Source: Mucilaginibacter lappiensis
GTDB lineage: Bacteria > Bacteroidota > Bacteroidia > Sphingobacteriales > Sphingobacteriaceae
Length of the DNA: 64,000 bases
Direction: 5' to 3'
Assembly (NCBI RefSeq): GCF_900155965.1
Contig: NZ_FTMG01000009.1
Coordinates: 62,001-126,000, forward strand
The notes below the pieces were generated by a model. That model was not told where the DNA came from. It searched no databases and was given only the letters and a program-made list of their open reading frames with translations. Below are positions 2,385 through 61,998 of the stretch, piece after piece. A program made the position numbers and the translations under genes. Position 1 is the first letter of the stretch; every line of letters starts with the position of its first letter.

Positions 2385-2507
2385 AGAGTCAAGATGTTAG
2401 AATCAAGAATCAAGAGGGAAACAAAAAATTGTTCACTTGTTATTGACATGTTTAAACTTTAGCTTTTTTATGTCTTGATTCTCAACTCTTGATTCCTGAC
2501 TCTCGAT
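2385..2507 (-). repeat. Intergenic word-array inverted repeat (AATCAAGA/AGAGTCAAG type)
   Basis: The left arm (2385-2416) repeats a word like AGTCAAGA or AATCAAGA; the right arm (2471-2507) carries the complement (TCTTGATT, CTCTTGATTC, TGACTCTCG). The roughly 55-base loop is AT-rich and has no ORF. The right arm runs into the 3' end of the next gene and supplies its last residues and stop codon (stop at 2482). Elements with other words recur across the window. Confidence 0.75.
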
Positions 2508-3777
2508 TTAAAACCTGATTAAAAAGCCGGCATTGATTCACCGTCATTTGTTGTGCCGAATATTTGCTGATCGTTTCCTGATCATATAATGGCGGTTCAG
2601 GATTACCGTTATGGAGTTGTGAAAGAAACTCGTTAATATTTATTTCTGTTACTTTTTCATAGTCATACACGTGCTTTACACCGTATGATTTAAGTATCGG
2701 TATGGCGGAGCTTTTTCCGTTAAAAATAGCCAGTAAGGGTTTTGGGGTAAGCAGATAAGGATAAATTTTCGATGCCGTATATTGCGGATCGTCGGAGCCA
2801 GGAATAAAAAGCGCATTGGCTTGCTGCAAGGTAAGCAGGGTATGATAATAACTGATCCGATCGGTTATTTCAACAACATAGTCTGCTACCCCATATTGTT
2901 GGGCGAGGGGCAGTATAGTTGGTTTACCCTGACCAGCCGGGGCATAACTGGTCCCTATAAAATAAAACTTCAACCGACTGAAAAACGCATCTCCCTTATC
3001 TGTAAGGCCTTTTTTAAGGGCTTCAAATACAGGTGTTATAGCCTGATGCATATCGGCACCGCCGCGACCGGTATAAACTATGTTGATAAACCGGGCATCT
3101 AACAGGTTCACAAATTCCGTTTGGTTTTCCCGGGCGATGGATATATCCGGTTCAAAAGCTCCAAAAGTGATCACAGCTGATGGCCTGTTTTTTATAACAG
3201 GATATTTGTTTTTCAGCACATCAATATAGTCTTCCGAAACACTGATTAAGCCATCGGCATTTTTTATGGCGATGGGTTCAAGATATTTATTTAAACGGTA
3301 CGAGAAAAAGTATTTTGGTGGCCTTTGTTCCCGGGGTTTGTTCTGGTAGTAATCAGAATGCCAGGGATCTTGCATATCAATAACATAAGGGATACCAAAC
3401 TTTTTTTTCCAATAGGTGCCTAGAATACAAACCGGAAATTGGGTGGTTGAAAAATAAATCAGGTCGAATTTTCCATCCTTCAAAAGGCGGTTAACTTTAC
3501 GGCGATAAAACCAAAGCGAACGTAAAGCGATGCTGCCCAAGCCTAATTTGGATGTCCATTGTTTATTCAGTGCCTTAACCCGATGTATTGGGATATCTTT
3601 GGGGATACTTTGAAGCAACAAGGGGTCTATCTGAATATCCGCATAACGCTCATCCACCATCACCACTTCTACATTCCAGCCTTCATCGACAAAGTAGGGT
3701 AAGCTCATGCGTATCCGTTGCATATCGGCCGCATTTACCGGTGGAAAGTAGGGCGATATAATGAGGAGATTTTTGAT
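2482..3777 (-). CDS. Glycosyltransferase (GT4-like) whose normal start codon appears lost
   Basis: The first ATG is at 3723 and gives 413 residues (MQRIRMSLPYF...). The frame stays open upstream, and the codons from 3774 read KNLLIISPYFPPVNAADMQ, the expected first strand and loop of this GT-B family, so the real protein should begin there. The codon just before that lysine (3777-3775) is ATC where ATG would be expected, and no ATG, GTG or TTG lies between it and the in-frame stop further upstream (near 3817). A one-base change inside the word-array repeat at 3763-3866 therefore seems to have removed the start. The gene may use AUC, may start late at 3723 without its first beta strand, or may be crippled. 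The rest is intact, including the late donor-lobe region. Its C-terminus (NRESGIKS) is encoded by the neighbouring repeat arm. Confidence 0.7.
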   Translation of the reverse strand: MKNLLIISPYFPPVNAADMQRIRMSLPYFVDEGWNVEVVMVDERYADIQIDPLLLQSIPKDIPIHRVKALNKQWTSKLGLGSIALRSLWFYRRKVNRLLKDGKFDLIYFSTTQFPVCILGTYWKKKFGIPYVIDMQDPWHSDYYQNKPREQRPPKYFFSYRLNKYLEPIAIKNADGLISVSEDYIDVLKNKYPVIKNRPSAVITFGAFEPDISIARENQTEFVNLLDARFINIVYTGRGGADMHQAITPVFEALKKGLTDKGDAFFSRLKFYFIGTSYAPAGQGKPTILPLAQQYGVADYVVEITDRISYYHTLLTLQQANALFIPGSDDPQYTASKIYPYLLTPKPLLAIFNGKSSAIPILKSYGVKHVYDYEKVTEININEFLSQLHNGNPEPPLYDQETISKYSAQQMTVNQCRLFNQVLNRESGIKS

Positions 3778-3866
3778 TTCGGAATTCGGATTTTTGATAT
3801 CGGATTTATTTTGATTTTAGAACTCACTTTTATTATCCTGGTTCTTAACGCTAATATCTTGACTCT
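3763..3866 (-). repeat. Intergenic word array (ATTTTTGAT/TTCGGAATT words)
   Basis: Read on the plus strand, 3766-3816 iterates ATTTTTGAT and CGGATTT words, with a central GGAATTCGG. Positions 3841-3866 carry a separate TTCTTAACG...TCTTGACTCTC block resembling the right arms of the other arrays. There is no clean long inverted repeat here. The array covers the start region of the downstream glycosyltransferase and the last 15 or so codons (SVKNQDNKSEF) of the upstream one. Confidence 0.6.
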
Positions 3867-5073
3867 CTATTATGCGCTGAAATATTTTACTTTCATTTTC
3901 CCAGTTCAGCTCGGTTTGGCCCAACCGATAATTCATTTGCTTGGTTTGTGCTAGCCTTTCCGGATTTTCGGCATATCCCAATATACAATTGGCCAGGGAG
4001 TTGATATCATCTTTTTGATATAGACTTCCAGTGGCGGGATATTGCTCCAGGAAAAGGCGTTGGGCCTGCGTATCGCTGGCAATCATAGCCAGGCCGGCTT
4101 GTATATAGGTAAAAATTTTATTGGTGAGGCAAATATCCCTGTTCAGGTTGGGAGCAGTTTCTGTAGCCATGCCGATATCAAACCGGGCCGCAAATTTAAA
4201 AAGTTCATCGGGGGCAATAGGCCGGTGAAAATGGATTTGATCAGCAGTAAGACGATTGTATTCTGCCAGTTTTATGATCATCAGCTTATCCTCGTCAGAA
4301 CAATTTCCCAGTAAATGCAATTCTGTTGGTTTTGCAACAAGCGCCATGGCCCCGATGATGTTTTCGATCCCCCGTTCTGTGCCAATGGTTTGTGAAAACC
4401 AGAAAAGTTTCAAAGGCTGCGTGGTATCAGTTCCAGACCTGATCGGAAGCTCAATCTTCGGGAAAACATTATTGATCAACACTGGATTCAAATAAGAATA
4501 AACCTCTTTATAGTTTTGAGCAATAAGCGGACTTGCTGCCGTAAAATAATCTGTTTGAGGGAAATATTTTTCTTCAATAAATTTATTCAACAGATAGCCT
4601 TTTTCATCTTTAGTTTTGAACTGACCGGAGTGCATATCTTCGGCATCATAACCTACTTTGGCATGGTTAAATTTTGCCGCCAAAACCGCCGCTGGTAAAG
4701 CGCCAAGATTGTGCGCGATATACAGATCGGTTTTTATGGATTTGGCGATAGTCAGCGCCTCTGCATGCGTCCGGGATATGGCATTTTCTGGCACATCGAA
4801 AGCTTTGGTAAAGTTAAAAAGACGCCAGCTTATTTTTTGCCGTAAACGTGTTTTGTAATAGCTTAATTTTTCATTCACAGGATCACCGCCACAATAAATA
4901 TATACATCTTTATTTCTATTGACGATCTCAAGGTCAAACTCCCGCGCCCATTCCTGATAAAAGCAGCAGATCACCTTAACCTGATATCCCAACTTAATTA
5001 ATGTTTCAGCTTCTTTAACCAGCCGGGGATTGGTACTCGGCTGCCCGGTGGTAATGAAGGTGATGTTTTTCAT
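3817..5073 (-). CDS. Glycosyltransferase family 4
   Basis: 418 residues. The N-terminus MKNITFITTGQPSTNPRLVK is the typical acceptor-lobe opening of a GT-B glycosyltransferase. A donor lobe starts around PLKLFWFSQTIGTERGIENI (about residue 215) and continues through LHLLGNCSD and IFTYIQAGLAMIASD near residue 335. The second glutamate of the GT4 signature is not obvious (the stretch reads FTYIQAGLAMI), so donor specificity or activity could differ. The ATG at 5073 is separated by one base from a perfect 26-base repeat arm, leaving no room for a normal ribosome-binding site. The last residues come from another repeat array. It is likely a sugar transferase for the repeat unit. Confidence 0.8.
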   Translation of the reverse strand: MKNITFITTGQPSTNPRLVKEAETLIKLGYQVKVICCFYQEWAREFDLEIVNRNKDVYIYCGGDPVNEKLSYYKTRLRQKISWRLFNFTKAFDVPENAISRTHAEALTIAKSIKTDLYIAHNLGALPAAVLAAKFNHAKVGYDAEDMHSGQFKTKDEKGYLLNKFIEEKYFPQTDYFTAASPLIAQNYKEVYSYLNPVLINNVFPKIELPIRSGTDTTQPLKLFWFSQTIGTERGIENIIGAMALVAKPTELHLLGNCSDEDKLMIIKLAEYNRLTADQIHFHRPIAPDELFKFAARFDIGMATETAPNLNRDICLTNKIFTYIQAGLAMIASDTQAQRLFLEQYPATGSLYQKDDINSLANCILGYAENPERLAQTKQMNYRLGQTELNWENESKIFQRIIESQDISVKNQDNKSEF

Positions 5074-5074
5074 C

Positions 5075-5166
5075 GTATCAAGTAGTTAGTATCAAGTATC
5101 AAGATTTTTGAAATCCTCATAAAACAATTGCAGCAGTCATGATACTTGATACTAACTACTTGATAC
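5075..5166. repeat. Word-array element with perfect 26-base inverted arms (GTATCAAGTA words)
   Basis: 5075-5100 and 5141-5166 are exact reverse complements over 26 bases, separated by a 40-base loop. Within each arm the word GTATCAAGTA/GTATCAAG repeats with a GTTA spacer. The left arm stops one base short of the start codon at 5073. The right arm contains the stop codon (TAG at 5152) and the last five codons (RVSSS) of the upstream gene. The exact symmetry suggests recent formation or active maintenance. Confidence 0.9.
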
Positions 5167-6177
5167 TCGATAATACAATTGTTCATATTGCGTAGCCATT
5201 ACGGCCGAACTGAATTTTTCTTCGGCCACCTGGCGGCATTTTGATCTGCTTAAGGTGGAGATATTATTAACCACTTCAATCATTTCGTTGATATTGCTGC
5301 ATACAAAACCGGTTGATCCGTTGGTTACCACTTCGGGTACTGCGCCCCTGTTAAATCCGATTACGGGTGTGCCGCAGGCCAGGGCTTCGGCCATTACAAT
5401 ACCAAAAGGTTCATCCCAGGTCACAGGCATCAACATGGCGCAGGCCTTACCTAATAACTCATTTTTTTGACTATTATTAACCGGACCGATGTATTTGATC
5501 TGGTTCTGATCAATGAAGGGGCGTACCTGTTCATTAAAGTATTGCTGATGAATTTGCTCCGCCGGTATATTACCCGCTATGATCAGTTTTTTGTTTGTTT
5601 TAAGCGCTATTTCAATAGCTATGGCGGTTCCTTTTTCCTGCTGTATCCTTCCTAAAAATACCAATGGCGCATCTGCATCAACTTCGGCGTTAAATTGATA
5701 GTCGGCCATATCCACGCTGTTGTAAATGGTGGTTACCTTACCGATATGGCTGATCTGCCCGGCAATAAAATGGCTGCAAGCTGTAAAATAAAGTGAGTTT
5801 TTGGCAGCTATATTTACCGCTTTTTTTACCTGCGATATGGTAGGTGGTAACTGGTACGAAACTATTTTAGGCTGCTTAAAAGGCATGAGCGATGCTATAT
5901 TACTCATGCGGCCAAAGGTGTGTACAACGTCGAAGTTTTTAAAAAGCAAGGAGGATGTTAACCGGTTAATCTTTATAAAATCTTTTAATCCATAATTTTC
6001 AGACTCCCGGTAACCCATAAGCTTGCAGCCCGGTTGAGAATTTGGATTGGCATACAGGGTAACATTATGTCCCATTTTTATCAACTCCCTGATCAGTACA
6101 TACACCACGCGTTCTATACCGCCATATTGTTCGGGTGGTACAGGTATTAAAGGGTTTACGATAAGGGCTATTTTCAA
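5152..6177 (-). CDS. Glycosyltransferase family 4
   Basis: 341 residues. The start MKIALIVNPLIPVPPEQYGG carries the GGIERV loop typical of GT4 enzymes. The donor lobe begins at PLVFLGRIQQEKGTAIAIEI (about residue 172), and the E-x7-E motif lies in DEPFGIVMAEALACGTPVIG (about residue 258). Cytoplasmic, retaining GT-B fold; the sugar is unknown. The gene follows the GT2 upstream after one base, so the two are translationally close. Its 3' end has been rewritten by the perfect inverted-repeat element, which gives the tail RVSSS. Confidence 0.88.
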   Translation of the reverse strand: MKIALIVNPLIPVPPEQYGGIERVVYVLIRELIKMGHNVTLYANPNSQPGCKLMGYRESENYGLKDFIKINRLTSSLLFKNFDVVHTFGRMSNIASLMPFKQPKIVSYQLPPTISQVKKAVNIAAKNSLYFTACSHFIAGQISHIGKVTTIYNSVDMADYQFNAEVDADAPLVFLGRIQQEKGTAIAIEIALKTNKKLIIAGNIPAEQIHQQYFNEQVRPFIDQNQIKYIGPVNNSQKNELLGKACAMLMPVTWDEPFGIVMAEALACGTPVIGFNRGAVPEVVTNGSTGFVCSNINEMIEVVNNISTLSRSKCRQVAEEKFSSAVMATQYEQLYYRVSSS

Positions 6178-13638: not shown

Positions 13639-13733
13639 GAAGAATCAAGAGATGAGAGTCAAGAGCCAAGACAGATCGAAAAAAGCAGCTTGTTATTTTT
13701 TCATGATTCTTGACTCTCATCTCTTGATTCTTC
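13639..13733. repeat. Word-array element with perfect 26-base inverted arms (AATCAAGAG/GAGTCAAGA words)
   Basis: 13639-13664 and 13708-13733 are exact reverse complements over 26 bases. An imperfect continuation narrows the loop from 43 bases to about 20. The words AGAATCAAGAG and GAGAGTCAAGAG alternate. It sits exactly between the end of a GT2 gene (stop at 13736) and the MBOAT start (13632), occupying nearly the whole gap. Confidence 0.9.
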
Positions 13734-28598: not shown

Positions 28599-29603
28599 AT
28601 GAAGATCGCTATAAATGGATTTGGCCGTATAGGTCGCATTTTTTTAAGAAATGTTTTAGCTAAACCCGGTATTGAGGTGGTAGCTATCAATGACCTTACG
28701 GATACGCAAACACTAGCCCACTTATTTAAATATGATTCCGTTCACCGCGGCTTTAAAGGCACGGTTGAGCATGATGCCAGCAACCTTTACATCAATGGGC
28801 ACCAAATAAAAGTATTGGCCGAGCGCGATCCACAGGCACTACCCTGGGGTAAACTGGATATTGACCTGGTGATAGAATCAACCGGGAAATTTACTTCCAG
28901 GCAAGGTGCCGAATTGCATTTAGCCGCTGGTGCCAAGCAGGTGATTATTTCGGCCCCATCCACTGATAAAAATGTACCAACTGTTGTATTGGGGGTAAAT
29001 GATGGCCTGGTCGATCTGCATTCACCCGTGTTATCTAACGCTTCATGCACCACCAATAATGTGGCGGCTATGGTGAAGATACTGGATGAGAACTGGGGAA
29101 TTATTGATGGCTACATCACTACCGTTCACTCCATGACCGGCGATCAAAACCTGCATGATGCTCCGCATAAAGACCTGCGCCGGGCAAGGGCGGCTTCGGC
29201 TTCTATTATACCTACTAGTACAGGTGCTGCCAAAGCTATCACCGCTATATTTCCGCATCTCGAAGGCCGTTTGGGTGGGGCTGGTATTCGCGTACCGGTA
29301 CTTAATGGTTCCTTAACAGATTTTACCTGCAGCCTTAAAAAGCAACCCACTATTGAAGAAATTAACCGGGCATTTAAACAGGCCGCCGATGGGCCTATGA
29401 AAAATGTACTGGAGTATACCGAAGATCCCATTGTATCAACCGATATACTGGATAATCCGCACAGCTGTATTTTTGACGCGCAGCTCACCTCCATTGTAGG
29501 GGGACTGGTGAAAGTGGTTGGCTGGTACGATAACGAAATGGGCTACAGCAGTCGCCTGGCCGATCTGGTGGAGGAAATAGCTAATTTAGAACCAAGAAGT
29601 TAG
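28599..29603 (+). CDS. gap: Type I glyceraldehyde-3-phosphate dehydrogenase
   Basis: 334 residues, normal length. The NAD-binding start MKIAINGFGRIGRIFLRNV, the catalytic cysteine in LSNASCTTNNVAAMVKIL (about residue 152), TVHSMTGDQNLHDAPHKDLR, and the C-terminal GWYDNEMGYSSRLADLVEEI are all conserved. It oxidises glyceraldehyde 3-phosphate to 1,3-bisphosphoglycerate; pgk, the next glycolytic step, lies 0.7 kb downstream. The last codons (EPRS) and the stop TAG at 29601 fall at the edge of a word-array repeat. Confidence 0.97.
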   Translation: MKIAINGFGRIGRIFLRNVLAKPGIEVVAINDLTDTQTLAHLFKYDSVHRGFKGTVEHDASNLYINGHQIKVLAERDPQALPWGKLDIDLVIESTGKFTSRQGAELHLAAGAKQVIISAPSTDKNVPTVVLGVNDGLVDLHSPVLSNASCTTNNVAAMVKILDENWGIIDGYITTVHSMTGDQNLHDAPHKDLRRARAASASIIPTSTGAAKAITAIFPHLEGRLGGAGIRVPVLNGSLTDFTCSLKKQPTIEEINRAFKQAADGPMKNVLEYTEDPIVSTDILDNPHSCIFDAQLTSIVGGLVKVVGWYDNEMGYSSRLADLVEEIANLEPRS

Positions 29604-29737
29604 AGTCAAGACATTAGAATCAAGAGCCAAGAATCAAGAAAATTGCTAACTAACAAATTAGAAAATGTTATGCATGCCAACAATAAATGATTTGCCTTTT
29701 TTTCTTGATTCTTGACTCTAATATCTTGACTCTTATA
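29599..29737. repeat. Word-array inverted repeat (AGAGTCAAGA/AATCAAGA words)
   Basis: Left arm 29599-29642 iterates AGAGTCAAGAC, TAGAATCAAGAG, CCAAGAATCAAGAA. Right arm 29697-29737 is its complement but lacks about one word (10 bases), so the arms pair with one bulge. The loop of about 55 bases has no ORF. The element separates gap from the acetyltransferase gene and carries the gap stop codon at its edge. Confidence 0.8.
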
Positions 29738-34153: not shown

Positions 34154-34240
34154 ATAGAGTCAAGAGCCAAGAGTCAAGAATCAAGAAAGGAGTGAAATTG
34201 ATCGATGACCATTTTTAACTCTTGATTCTCGATTCTTATT
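34154..34240. repeat. Word-array inverted repeat (AGAGTCAAGAG/AATCAAGAA words)
   Basis: Left arm 34154-34188 repeats AGTCAAGAGCCAAG, AGTCAAGAATCAAG. Right arm 34215-34240 is a shorter, diverged complement (AACTCTTGATTCTCGATTC). The loop is about 26 bases. It is located between two tandem GH18 genes. Confidence 0.7.
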
Positions 34241-36465: not shown

Positions 36466-36876
36466 TGTCGGTTTTTTAAAATTGGTTTATAAATTTTTAA
36501 TCGGTTTAAGCTCAAGAGCCGTGTTTATGCATAGGCGTATTGGTTTTATTGGTGGCATAAAGAAATAATTGGAGATAAATTAATAGGGCGGGTGGGTATT
36601 AAACGATTTAGCATTATAATATGTTTAGTTAAATAACTAAGAAATGTTAAATATTTTTTAACGTCCGGTAAATGAATGAGCATATATTAATGGGTTTATA
36701 TGCGTAATGATTTAATTGGTTTACAGCTATATGGACAAGCAATAAATAATAATTGCCTACAAACATTTAAAATTTAATTATATTAATATCTATATTATCG
36801 TCATATATGGTTTAATAGCATCATTTGGCGCTATAAGCCGTGGGATGTCACCAGGGAAAAAACTACATTTGCCATG
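36466..36876. other. AT-rich gap between divergent GH18 and thiD units
   Basis: About 410 bases without a convincing ORF. It should hold the promoter of the GH18 row on the minus strand and the promoter of the riboswitch transcript on the plus strand. I found no strong TAnnTTTG/TTG pair and no long inverted repeat. Confidence 0.5.
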
Positions 36877-36952
36877 GCTTTAGGGGTATTCTGTGAAGAA
36901 TTGAGATAAACCCTTTGAACCTGATCCGGCTGATACCGGTGTAGGGAAAAGT
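36877..36952 (+). promoter_or_regulatory. TPP riboswitch (THI box)
   Basis: Conserved aptamer blocks are present in order: TAGGGGTATTC (36881 on), TTGAGATAAACCCTTTGAACC (P2/P4 core, split here by one base from the standard CTGAGA), TGATCCGGCTGATACCGGTG, and GTAGGGAAAAG closing P1 against CTTTAGGGG. It senses thiamine pyrophosphate and should turn the downstream thiD off when the cofactor is abundant. A GCTCAG-TC-CTGAGC hairpin followed by a TTTTTT stretch at about 36975-37006 may be the terminator of the expression platform. Confidence 0.93.
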
Positions 36953-36974
36953 TGGAATTTATTTTATCCGCAGC

Positions 36975-39190: not shown

Positions 39191-39518
39191 TGTCCCCTCA
39201 GGGTCTCTCGCAGATTTAAGTTAACCCATAAAATCTAAATATGAACTAAAGAGTCCCCGGAAGGCAAGTTCAGGATCAGGAGACTCCGCAGGAGTCCACC
39301 ATTTCTTTAATTTTATCTATAAACAGGAGGCCTCTCTGAGGCCGAATGGCAGGCCAGGTATACTAATTATAGTATAAAGCATTGCCGGCCCCAGCGGGGC
39401 CACGTGTTTATAGCCTAAAAGAGCACGTTCTTTGGCTCCGTAGGTGCCTCCCGTTGAAATTTCAAGTTGATCAATTTTGTGGGTTAACTTAAACTTTCAG
39501 GAGACCCCCGAGGGGACG
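39191..39518. repeat. Long composite hairpin element with 38-base imperfect terminal inverted repeats
   Basis: The outer arms 39191-39228 and 39480-39518 match as inverted repeats at about 30 of 38 positions (GTCCCCTC...TTTAAGTTAACCCA). Inside lie separate small hairpins: GACTCC-gca-GGAGTC at 39282-39296, GGCCTC-tct-GAGGCC at 39329-39343, TATACT-aattat-AGTATA at 39359-39376, and GGCCCC-agc-GGGGCC at 39387-39401. CTATAAACA (39318 region) also pairs with TGTTTATAG (39406 region), and AACAGGAGGC with GCCTCCCGTT. It carries no ORF. It could be a MITE-like insertion or a structured RNA. It fills most of the gap between the HTH gene and the CocE-type hydrolase. Confidence 0.75.
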
Positions 39519-41783: not shown

Positions 41784-41834
41784 GGGGGAAGGGGGGGAAG
41801 GGGTTTATGGTATAGGATAAACTATCGTCCATAA

Positions 41835-41922
41835 AAGAGGGCTCTCATCCTGAGCTTGTCGAAGCATGGTGGGCAGGCCTCTGCGCTCAACCCTTCGACA
41901 GGCTCAGGGTGACAGCCCTCTT
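41835..41922. repeat. Palindromic intergenic repeat, CTTCGACAGGCTCAGG family, copy 2
   Basis: AGAGGGCT at the left end pairs with AGCCCTCT at the right, and CCTGAGCTTGTCGAAG pairs with CTTCGACAGGCTCAGGGTG. The order and centre match copy 1 at 31541-31624. Followed by TTTTTCG, it could act as a transcription terminator. Confidence 0.85.
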
Positions 41923-42134
41923 TTTCGTGGGTTTACATAAAACTTGGTATATTATGGAAAAATTTGTATAAATTATTGATTTTCAATATAATAAATCAAT
42001 GTTAACCATAAAAAGTGTAAACCATGTAAACCCACTTTTTAACAAATGGTTCTCCGACGGTTCAGGCGTTCACGCTTGAATTTTATTTAGCCTGTGGTTG
42101 GTGATTTCACTTCACCACTTAAAATTAGTTACGG

Positions 42135-57285: not shown

Positions 57286-58742
57286 TGTATTTAAGTGATA
57301 TACTGGATGGATTGGCTTTTACTGAATTACAGGGAAGCGCTGATGTGGAAATTACGTCTGTAACCTTTGATTCGCGCAAAGTTGAGCCCGGTTCATTGTT
57401 TGTTGCTGTAAAAGGCACGCTGGTTGATGGTCATGACTATATTGATCAGGCTATTAAAAGCGGTGCTATAGCTATTATTTGTGAAGATCTGCCCGCGCGT
57501 ACCGTAGCTGAGGTGGACTTTCTGATGGTGGCCGATTCTGGTAAGGCATTGAGTATTGTTGCCGCCAATTTTTATGGACAGCCATCCGAAAAGCTTAAGC
57601 TGGTTGGTGTTACCGGTACCAATGGTAAAACTACAGTGGCTACTTTGCTGTACCAACTGTTTCGAGATTTGGGATATAAATGCGGTCTGTTATCAACTGT
57701 CGAAAACCAGGTCAATGGTACGGTAATTCCATCAACCCACACCACTCCCGATCCCATTGAGCTGAATAGCTTATTGGCAGAGATGGTGGAGCAGGGATGT
57801 GATTATTGCTTTATGGAAGTGAGTTCGCACGCCATAGCTCAGCACCGTATTGCCAACCTGGTGTTTTCGGGTGGGATATTTACCAATTTGACGCATGATC
57901 ATTTAGATTATCATAAAACTTTCGATAGTTATCTGAAAGCTAAAAAGGCATTTTTTGATGGCCTGCCAAAAACCGCCTTTGCGCTTACCAATAGCGATGA
58001 TAAAAATGGTAATGTGATGCTGCAGAACACCCAGGCGCATAAAAAAACCTACGGACTAAAAACTATGGCCGATTATAAGGCCCGTATCCTGGAAAATCAG
58101 TTTGAGGGCTTGCTGCTGCACATTGATAGTGAAGAGGTTTGGTTTAAAATGGTTGGCACATTTAACGCCTACAATTTGCTGGCGGTTTATGCCACTGCTA
58201 TGTTGCTCGATCAGGATAAAGCTAAAGTATTAACCAGCTTGAGTAAACTGACGGGTGCCGAAGGTCGCTTTGAATATATAGTAGCGCCTAATAAGGTAAT
58301 AGGCATAGTTGATTATGCCCACACGCCTGATGCTGTACAAAATGTACTGAGCACCATTCATGACATCCGTAAGGGTAACGAGAAAGTGATCACCGTAATT
58401 GGCTGCGGTGGCGATAGGGATAAAACGAAACGCCCGATCATGGCACGTGTAGCCAGCGAGTGGAGCGATAAGGTAATATTAACTGCCGATAATCCACGGA
58501 CGGAAGATCCGGGTCAGATCATTAAAGATATGGAGGAAGGGGTTGATCCGGCTTTCAAAAGACATGCGGTGAGCATTGTTGATCGTCGCGAAGCAATAAA
58601 AACAGCCTGTATGTTGGCCAATCCAGGTGATATTATACTGGTAGCCGGCAAAGGGCACGAGAAATACCAGGAAATAAATGGCGTGAAAAATCATTTTGAC
58701 GATATGGAGGAGTTGGAAGAGCAATTTAAGTTATTGTCATAG
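57282..58742 (+). CDS. murE: UDP-MurNAc-L-Ala-D-Glu:meso-diaminopimelate ligase
   Basis: 486 residues. The Mur ligase P-loop is VGVTGTNGKTTVATLLYQLF (about residue 109). The D-N-P-R motif in ILTADNPRTEDPGQIIKDME (about residue 405) marks the meso-diaminopimelate-specific enzymes rather than the lysine type. It adds the third residue of the peptide stem. Start overlaps ftsI by 4 bases. The stop TAG at 58740-58742 overlaps the left arm of the four-helix-bundle element. Confidence 0.97.
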   Translation: MMYLSDILDGLAFTELQGSADVEITSVTFDSRKVEPGSLFVAVKGTLVDGHDYIDQAIKSGAIAIICEDLPARTVAEVDFLMVADSGKALSIVAANFYGQPSEKLKLVGVTGTNGKTTVATLLYQLFRDLGYKCGLLSTVENQVNGTVIPSTHTTPDPIELNSLLAEMVEQGCDYCFMEVSSHAIAQHRIANLVFSGGIFTNLTHDHLDYHKTFDSYLKAKKAFFDGLPKTAFALTNSDDKNGNVMLQNTQAHKKTYGLKTMADYKARILENQFEGLLLHIDSEEVWFKMVGTFNAYNLLAVYATAMLLDQDKAKVLTSLSKLTGAEGRFEYIVAPNKVIGIVDYAHTPDAVQNVLSTIHDIRKGNEKVITVIGCGGDRDKTKRPIMARVASEWSDKVILTADNPRTEDPGQIIKDMEEGVDPAFKRHAVSIVDRREAIKTACMLANPGDIILVAGKGHEKYQEINGVKNHFDDMEELEEQFKLLS

Positions 58743-59243
58743 ATGTGCAGATTTCAGATGTGCAAATGTGCAGATGAGGAAGAAGATGAAAAAATGACTG
58801 GATTGAAGTAATATAAAATGGATGAAAAGCCTAATCTGATAGTTGACCTGACATTTAAGTTCTCGTTGAAGATAATAAGCTTTACAGAAAAGCTGGAAAC
58901 AGAAAGGAAATTTAATATGGCGAATCAGCTTTTTAGAAGTGGAACATCAATCGGAGCGAATATTTGTGAAGCACAGGGAGCACAGAGCAAGGCTGATTTT
59001 AAACATAAATGTAAAATAGCTTATAAAGAAGCCGAAGAAACAAGATACTGGTTAAGATTATGTCAACAAGCGGAAAGTTATCCATTTGAACAAGCAATGC
59101 TTGATGATATACAGTCAATAGTTAAAGTTTTAGGGAAGATAATTTCATCAACCAATTAATAAGTAACAAAAAAAATCAAAACATAAACCGCACATCTGCA
59201 TATCTGCACATTTGAAATCTGCACATCTGCACATCTGCACATT
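58741..59243 (+). mobile_element. Word-array inverted-repeat element carrying a four-helix-bundle gene, inserted between murE and mraY
   Basis: The left arm 58741-58776 and the right arm 59191-59243 are inverted complements built from TGCAGATG/GTGCAAATG words; AGATGTGCAGATTTC is shared exactly in inverted form, and the right arm has more word copies. Between the arms lies the 113-residue gene at 58818. The element fills the murE-mraY gap almost entirely. I see no transposase and no clear target-site duplication. It matches the architecture of the empty word-array elements elsewhere in the window, so I read it as a coding version of them. Confidence 0.7.
58818..59159 (+). CDS. Four-helix-bundle protein (S23/IVS-encoded type, Avd-like fold)
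   Basis: 113 residues, mostly helical: DLTFKFSLKIISFTEKLETE, then FNMANQLFRSGTSIGANICE, AQSKADFKHKCKIAYKEAEE, TRYWLRLCQQAESYPFEQ and LDDIQSIVKVLGKIISSTN. The S-I-G-A-N-I-x-E-A and the E-A-E-E-T-x-Y-W-L blocks are signature features of the family found inside 23S rRNA intervening sequences and related to Avd of diversity-generating retroelements. No reverse transcriptase or variable repeat is here. It lies inside inverted word-array arms, splitting murE from mraY. Confidence 0.9.
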   Translation: MDEKPNLIVDLTFKFSLKIISFTEKLETERKFNMANQLFRSGTSIGANICEAQGAQSKADFKHKCKIAYKEAEETRYWLRLCQQAESYPFEQAMLDDIQSIVKVLGKIISSTN

Positions 59244-61930: not shown

Positions 61931-61998
61931 GGTCCATAGTCTATGGTCGATAGTCAATGGAAAAAGAAAATAAGATCTATCGACCATGGTCCATGGAC
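61931..61998. repeat. Word-array inverted repeat (GGTCCATAGTC words)
   Basis: Left arm 61931-61954 and right arm 61975-61998 pair at about 19 of 24 positions. The words GTCCATAG, CTATGGTCGATAG and TCCATGGAC are themselves partly palindromic. The array begins eight bases after the murD stop and encodes the false N-terminal extension of the long ftsW frame. Confidence 0.75.

Follow-up and report, generated by a model that had tools for sequence, protein, structure and literature searches.

How do the two arms of a long inverted repeat come to be identical when one of them ends a gene and the other lies against the start of the next? The question is raised by a hairpin in a 64,000-nucleotide stretch of Mucilaginibacter lappiensis DNA, the whole of which is referred to here as the window and whose genome of origin (6.79 Mb) is designated G000. 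The arms GTATCAAGTAGTTAGTATCAAGTATCA (5075-5101) and TGATACTTGATACTAACTACTTGATAC (5140-5166) match as reverse complements at all 27 nt, enclose a loop of 38 nt (AGATTTTTGAAATCCTCATAAAACAATTGCAGCAGTCA, 5102-5139) and are bounded by a mismatched adjoining pair at either end. A sequence-only reading of this locus had described a perfect inverted repeat with arms of 26 bases; the perfect pairing stood, and the length was revised to 27 bp. That reading had also placed a glycosyltransferase stop in one arm and the end of the other one base before the next start codon, in agreement with the ORF coordinates: the 341-aa glycosyltransferase ORF (5152-6177, - strand) has its C-terminus, ...YYRVSSS*, inside the right arm, and the ATG of the downstream glycosyltransferase ORF (3817-5073, - strand) lies 1 base past the left arm. 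The predicted RNA fold of the hairpin is strong (-47.4 kcal/mol, z = -10.8). The parts of the hairpin and the other heptad arrays listed for the window are as follows.

5075..5101, + strand: left arm (3' arm in the transcript), GTATCAA GTAGTTA GTATCAA GTATCA, ending 1 base before the ATG
5102..5139, no strand: loop, of the same type as the loops at C19:145589 (direct) and C17:17103 (inverted) in the same genome
5140..5166, - strand: right arm (5' arm in the transcript), encoding the end (VSSS, TAG stop) of the upstream glycosyltransferase
2385..2503, no strand: hairpin of the same architecture in the neighbouring glycosyltransferase gene gap, word GAATCAA/GAGTCAA
3724..3816, - strand: unpaired ATCCGAA/ATCAAAA heptads filling a glycosyltransferase gene gap
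13639..13733, no strand: GAATCAA-type heptad hairpin, inner 26 bp perfect
29602..29733, no strand: GAGTCAA-type heptad hairpin
34156..34237, no strand: GAGTCAA-type heptad inverted pair
61932..61998, no strand: GTCCATA-type heptad hairpin

Hairpins scoring at least 17 numbered 31 in 400 kb of real sequence and 5 in the window; since Markov-model 400-kb copies yielded none, the window hairpin is not a product of chance. Far from being a single oddity, it belongs to a family of intergenic hairpin repeats that are dispersed over its own genome, with 97 BLAST matches at ~45 places. Among 38 loci of that genome the arms are mostly AGTATCAAGTAG[CT]TAGTATCAAGTATCAAGA, and the loops are typically 36-44 nt long and poorly conserved. 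Each arm is a string of 7-nt words, four per arm module, and other words (GAATCAA, GTCCATA, AGATATG, GATTTCG, GTCATTA, GAGCAAG, GTTCATA and others) form hairpins in the same genome, as does an 8-nt unit, AGATGTGC. An inverted repeat of the latter kind spans window 58741-59242, with arms ~416 nt apart enclosing a small ORF (~58819-59160) that by eye looks like a four-helix-bundle protein of the 23S-intervening-sequence type. Heptanucleotide periodicity was enriched intergenically: runs at periods 7, 14 and 21 numbered 29, 31 and 11 in intergenic DNA and 6, 5 and 13 in ~5 times as much coding DNA. Intergenic runs at the octad periods 8 and 16 numbered 15 and 12, and the remaining periods up to 30 mostly gave 0-7. 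Our literature search found no description of these words, or of such hairpins, in Mucilaginibacter.

A near-exact 21-mer of the repeat was present in 19 of 60 sampled relatives, every carrier belonging to the Mucilaginibacter-like genus. The exact 23-mer, in a scan of named genomes, was also found in Pedobacter, Algoriphagus, Spirosoma, Wenyingzhuangia and Breznakibacter, and in Marinilabiliaceae, Cytophagales and Chitinophagales records. Carriage by phages or plasmids was rejected, the repeat being present in 8 of 2.9 million viral contigs and giving no match in a plasmid search. The arms behave as modules, because in Pedobacter, Algoriphagus and other Bacteroidota the partner of a GTATCAA arm is often built of a different word. 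Pairing is therefore not universal, and the Pedobacter and Algoriphagus arms of differing words count against a general arm-to-arm copying.

In 1.25 Mb of Mucilaginibacter DNA, 117 heptad hairpins were located, none of them inside a gene, with crude gene calls underlying these placement counts. By gap type, 94 were co-directional, 12 divergent and 7 convergent; co-directional gaps were enriched (94/113 hairpins vs 476/715 gaps, p = 2.8e-4) and convergent gaps depleted (7/113 vs 108/715, p = 0.008). The median hairpin lies 5 nt past a stop codon and 18 nt ahead of the next start. An intrinsic terminator, which has a GC-rich stem followed by a T run and lies at the end of convergent or last genes, was rejected as an identity: the window hairpin is without a T run, and heptad hairpins are depleted in convergent gaps; a search for terminators gave nothing terminator-like at 4800-5500. 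Integron attC sites, considered for the co-directional placement, were set aside because the arms, by eye, are without the usual core sites. No Rfam family matched at the hairpin, and the only match in the window was a TPP riboswitch (36872-36964, + strand). A long inverted repeat that is not built of heptads, CCTGAGCTTGTCGAAG / CTTCGACAGGCTCAGG, lies at window 41833-41924. Elsewhere in G000, the conserved gap C26:173708-173848 carries copies of a palindrome, GTTCCACGTGGAAC, that are well kept in G083 and G022; this palindrome presumably resembles the parS-like motif TGTTCCACGTGGAACA.

We then compared the window locus with its counterparts in related genomes. G083 and G022 keep the first arm in transcript sense (with GTAGCTAG), followed at the site of the 3' arm by a block of ATCCGAA words that does not pair with it; G155 has a hairpin of GAGTCAA words, and G147, G152 and G079 have no insert. 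Because G083 is the closest relative, G022 lies outside the G000-G083 pair (identities 88.6, 86.7, 85.8%) and neither has a pairing partner for the arm, the ancestral state is probably the unpaired one, with the palindrome probably completed in the G000 lineage, a placement made by parsimony on three species. Recent origin, one of the two alternatives put forward in the sequence-only reading, accords with this arrangement. The window loop is closest to that of C19:145589, an old copy, given that G083, G022 and G155 have a GTATCAA hairpin in the corresponding position. Orthologues of the neighbouring gap 3724..3816 hold a GTATCAA hairpin in G022 and a GAGTCAA-type hairpin in G155. The codon at the start of the downstream glycosyltransferase (window 5071-5073; L344, L346) is ATG here, GTG in G155, ATA in G083 and ATC in G022, and start use at this codon may be unusual or shifted.

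Within hairpins of the family, the two arms change together. At C26:337643, where G000, G083 and G022 have clearly homologous loops, both G000 arms are without the same heptad and both show a T-to-C change. Similarly, at C19:145589 GTAATTAG occurs in both G083 arms vs GTAGTTAG in both G022 arms. The T/C variant of the second word was concordant between arms in G000 (Fisher p = 2.7e-4) and over 120 pairs (p = 5.6e-6; 0 of 2000 permutations). Across 29 orthologous pairs, in which several rows represent one locus compared across three species, divergence was 0.048 within a hairpin vs 0.319 between orthologous arms (Wilcoxon p = 6e-6), a between-orthologue value (0.32) that includes word switches and arm-length differences and so overstates substitutions. 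Gap 603 was an exception, its orthologous distance being smaller than its within-hairpin distance, and paired change at the scale of a whole heptad was seen in one clear case only. Joint alteration of the arms, with greater similarity within a locus than between orthologues, is what template switching predicts.

Loops, for their part, were found inverted between orthologues, at two loci only. The reverse complement of the G000 loop at C19:145589 is 79% identical to the G083 loop and 77% to the G022 loop, with colinear flanks, whereas the direct orientation gives only 50% identity between G000 and G083. The second locus is C26:191685, where G000 and G083 have the loop in one orientation and G022 in the opposite one; the more distant G116 shares the G022 orientation, so that this inversion probably took place in the ancestor that G000 and G083 share. 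A spacer inverted between lineages within colinear flanks is likewise predicted by template switching. The other alternative, that the arms are being corrected against each other, is thus supported by joint arm change and loop inversion in the family.

We consider it likely that the window hairpin is a copy of a dispersed intergenic repeat whose arms are kept identical at the DNA level by arm-to-arm templating, with the loop sometimes inverted, and that the window palindrome arose in this lineage. In the course of replication or repair, one arm would template the other, by quasipalindrome-type template switching or by recombination between the arms; changes would thereby be transferred from arm to arm and the loop would occasionally be inverted. 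We infer that template switching, rather than another recombination route, is the cause. At the window locus, a hairpin of the C19:145589 type would most likely have been taken over onto a site that already had one GTATCAA arm. Arm-to-arm copying leaves unaccounted for the 23-mer shared across Bacteroidota and the consensus arms beside diverged loops. Such copying equalises the two arms of a hairpin but does not bring them to a consensus across genera, so that spread, conversion between loci, or a sequence-specific binder or selection is needed in addition.

The paired changes could alternatively be compensatory evolution under selection on an RNA hairpin in polycistronic mRNA, acting in processing, as a stabiliser or in translation control. 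Enrichment in co-directional gaps, the position close after stop codons, the absence from genes and the strong predicted fold are all consistent with such selection. However, selection on RNA pairing should favour G.U mismatches, and on the transcript strand of the 94 co-directional hairpins G.T mismatches were not in excess over A.C (25 vs 33, p = 0.36, in a test of modest size). Since no G.U excess was seen, arm matching looks like a DNA-level process that is blind to strand. Related species, moreover, have unpaired arms or no insert in the same gap, and loop inversion is not a product of RNA selection, so that we regard this explanation as unlikely. The suggestion in the sequence-only reading that the hairpin may tune translation of the downstream gene likewise gains no support from these data, the gene pair being retained in close relatives that have no paired hairpin between the two genes. 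The case cautions that covarying stems are not necessarily functional RNAs, the covariation here being strong and without G.U preference. The loop inversions, with their colinear flanks, could also reflect a site-specific recombinase with the arms as its recognition sites, which would flip the loop much as phase-variable promoters are inverted. A spacer of ~38 nt is very short for a synaptic complex, and inversion alone would not match arms of different words at word-switched loci; a recombinase of this kind appears more improbable still.

A stronger competitor, which we nevertheless hold to be less probable than arm-to-arm templating, is that each copy is a unit of some MITE- or REP/BIME-like mobile element and owes its arm identity to recent insertion of the whole unit. 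Dispersed homologous copies of ~92 nt, the exact 23-mer in several Bacteroidota lineages, the close relative of the window copy with a matching loop, and the existence of orthologous gaps without the element all fit such units. But in most copies the loops are strongly diverged and the arms are not, the opposite of what recent whole-unit insertion gives, and the elements at C26:191685 and C26:337643 are older than the species split and still have matching arms. The flanks of copies show, by eye, no evident target duplication, distant empty gaps being too diverged to resolve. No arm lies within 1.5 kb of any of the seven Y1_Tnp loci that the window genome has; different repeats flank these genes. 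G022, which is rich in copies, gave just one Y1_Tnp match, and this match covers the domain profile in full. A RAYT/REP origin was rejected on these grounds. Insertion of a mobile element may well account for the spread, but the arm identity of old copies is left unexplained by it. Separately, an inverted repeat with GGGTCTCTCGCAGA at window 39201-39507 is probably a true RAYT-linked REP, because it resembles the repeats that flank a Y1 transposase gene in L187.

Arm-to-arm templating concerns the likeness of two arms; the words themselves also change at fixed positions. At C26:360699 three species have three different words, and the hairpin persists between flanks that are 87-90% identical. 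The hairpin word differs between G000 and G083 at gaps 410, 531 and 585. A hairpin of another word was present in G083 at 6 of the 26 gaps with a G000 heptad hairpin vs 12 of the 267 without one (p = 0.002); of the 8 scored word switches, 2 were the same word at a different length and were dropped by eye. Word switching may represent rewriting in place, conversion by other loci, or recurrent insertion into a preferred site. Tentatively, and as a view that we hold with some reserve, the hairpins could constitute an undescribed Bacteroidota-wide class with 7-nt words as building blocks. The word at a locus would be replaced and its hairpin retained, which would imply that heptad arms, together with inverted copies of them, are actively written into the gaps between genes. 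The switching of words at fixed positions suggests such a repeat-writing process, of which we found no description.

Among known repeats, the TAACTGA heptanucleotide direct repeats of Beggiatoaceae, Cyanobacteria and some Bacteroidetes (PMC4679880) share with the present family a 7-nt unit, an intergenic location near start codons and a distribution scattered over phyla. As relayed in that paper, the Mrazek survey found 7-nt units to be the commonest class in most genomes, and an earlier proposal, also relayed there, took 7 nt to be the length that DNA polymerase may contact during slippage. The TAACTGA sets, however, repeat one fixed word in direct orientation, a single inverted case being reported in that genome (PMC4679880), whereas here the units vary, many word families coexist, and the arms are mutually matching inverted pairs. 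REP/BIME sequences with their RAYT are likewise short, intergenic, dispersed and often in inverted pairs, and the TnpA_REP of Bacteroidetes form a subclass of their own, 2.6, whose flanking structures are atypical (PMC3733652, PMC6006769). REP stems are of 5-13 bp and tagged GTAG or CGTC (PMC3733652, PMC6006769), unlike the Mucilaginibacter arms of 27-33 bp with an internal period of 7 nt; in the window hairpin, with its 27-bp arms and 38-nt loop, GTAG lies inside the arm and not in an unpaired tag.

The origin and upkeep of long perfect inverted repeats is an old question, usually approached via single reporter palindromes. Dozens of natural hairpins with known relatives are at hand in the Mucilaginibacter genome; they permit a direct count of arm-copying and loop-flipping events, for which orthologous gaps whose arms do not pair serve as a control. 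A close likeness of the family is to quasipalindrome correction by template switching. The products described for template switching between inverted-repeat arms in yeast are arm homogenisation and spacer inversion (PMC8604942), and in RNA genes template switching makes multi-base paired changes in one step (PMC8794818). Traces of both arm homogenisation and spacer inversion are present here. Where the yeast spacer inversions given in PMC8604942 concern coding genes and spacers only a few bases long, it is a genome-wide repeat class, with spacers of ~38 nt, that bears both traces in Mucilaginibacter.
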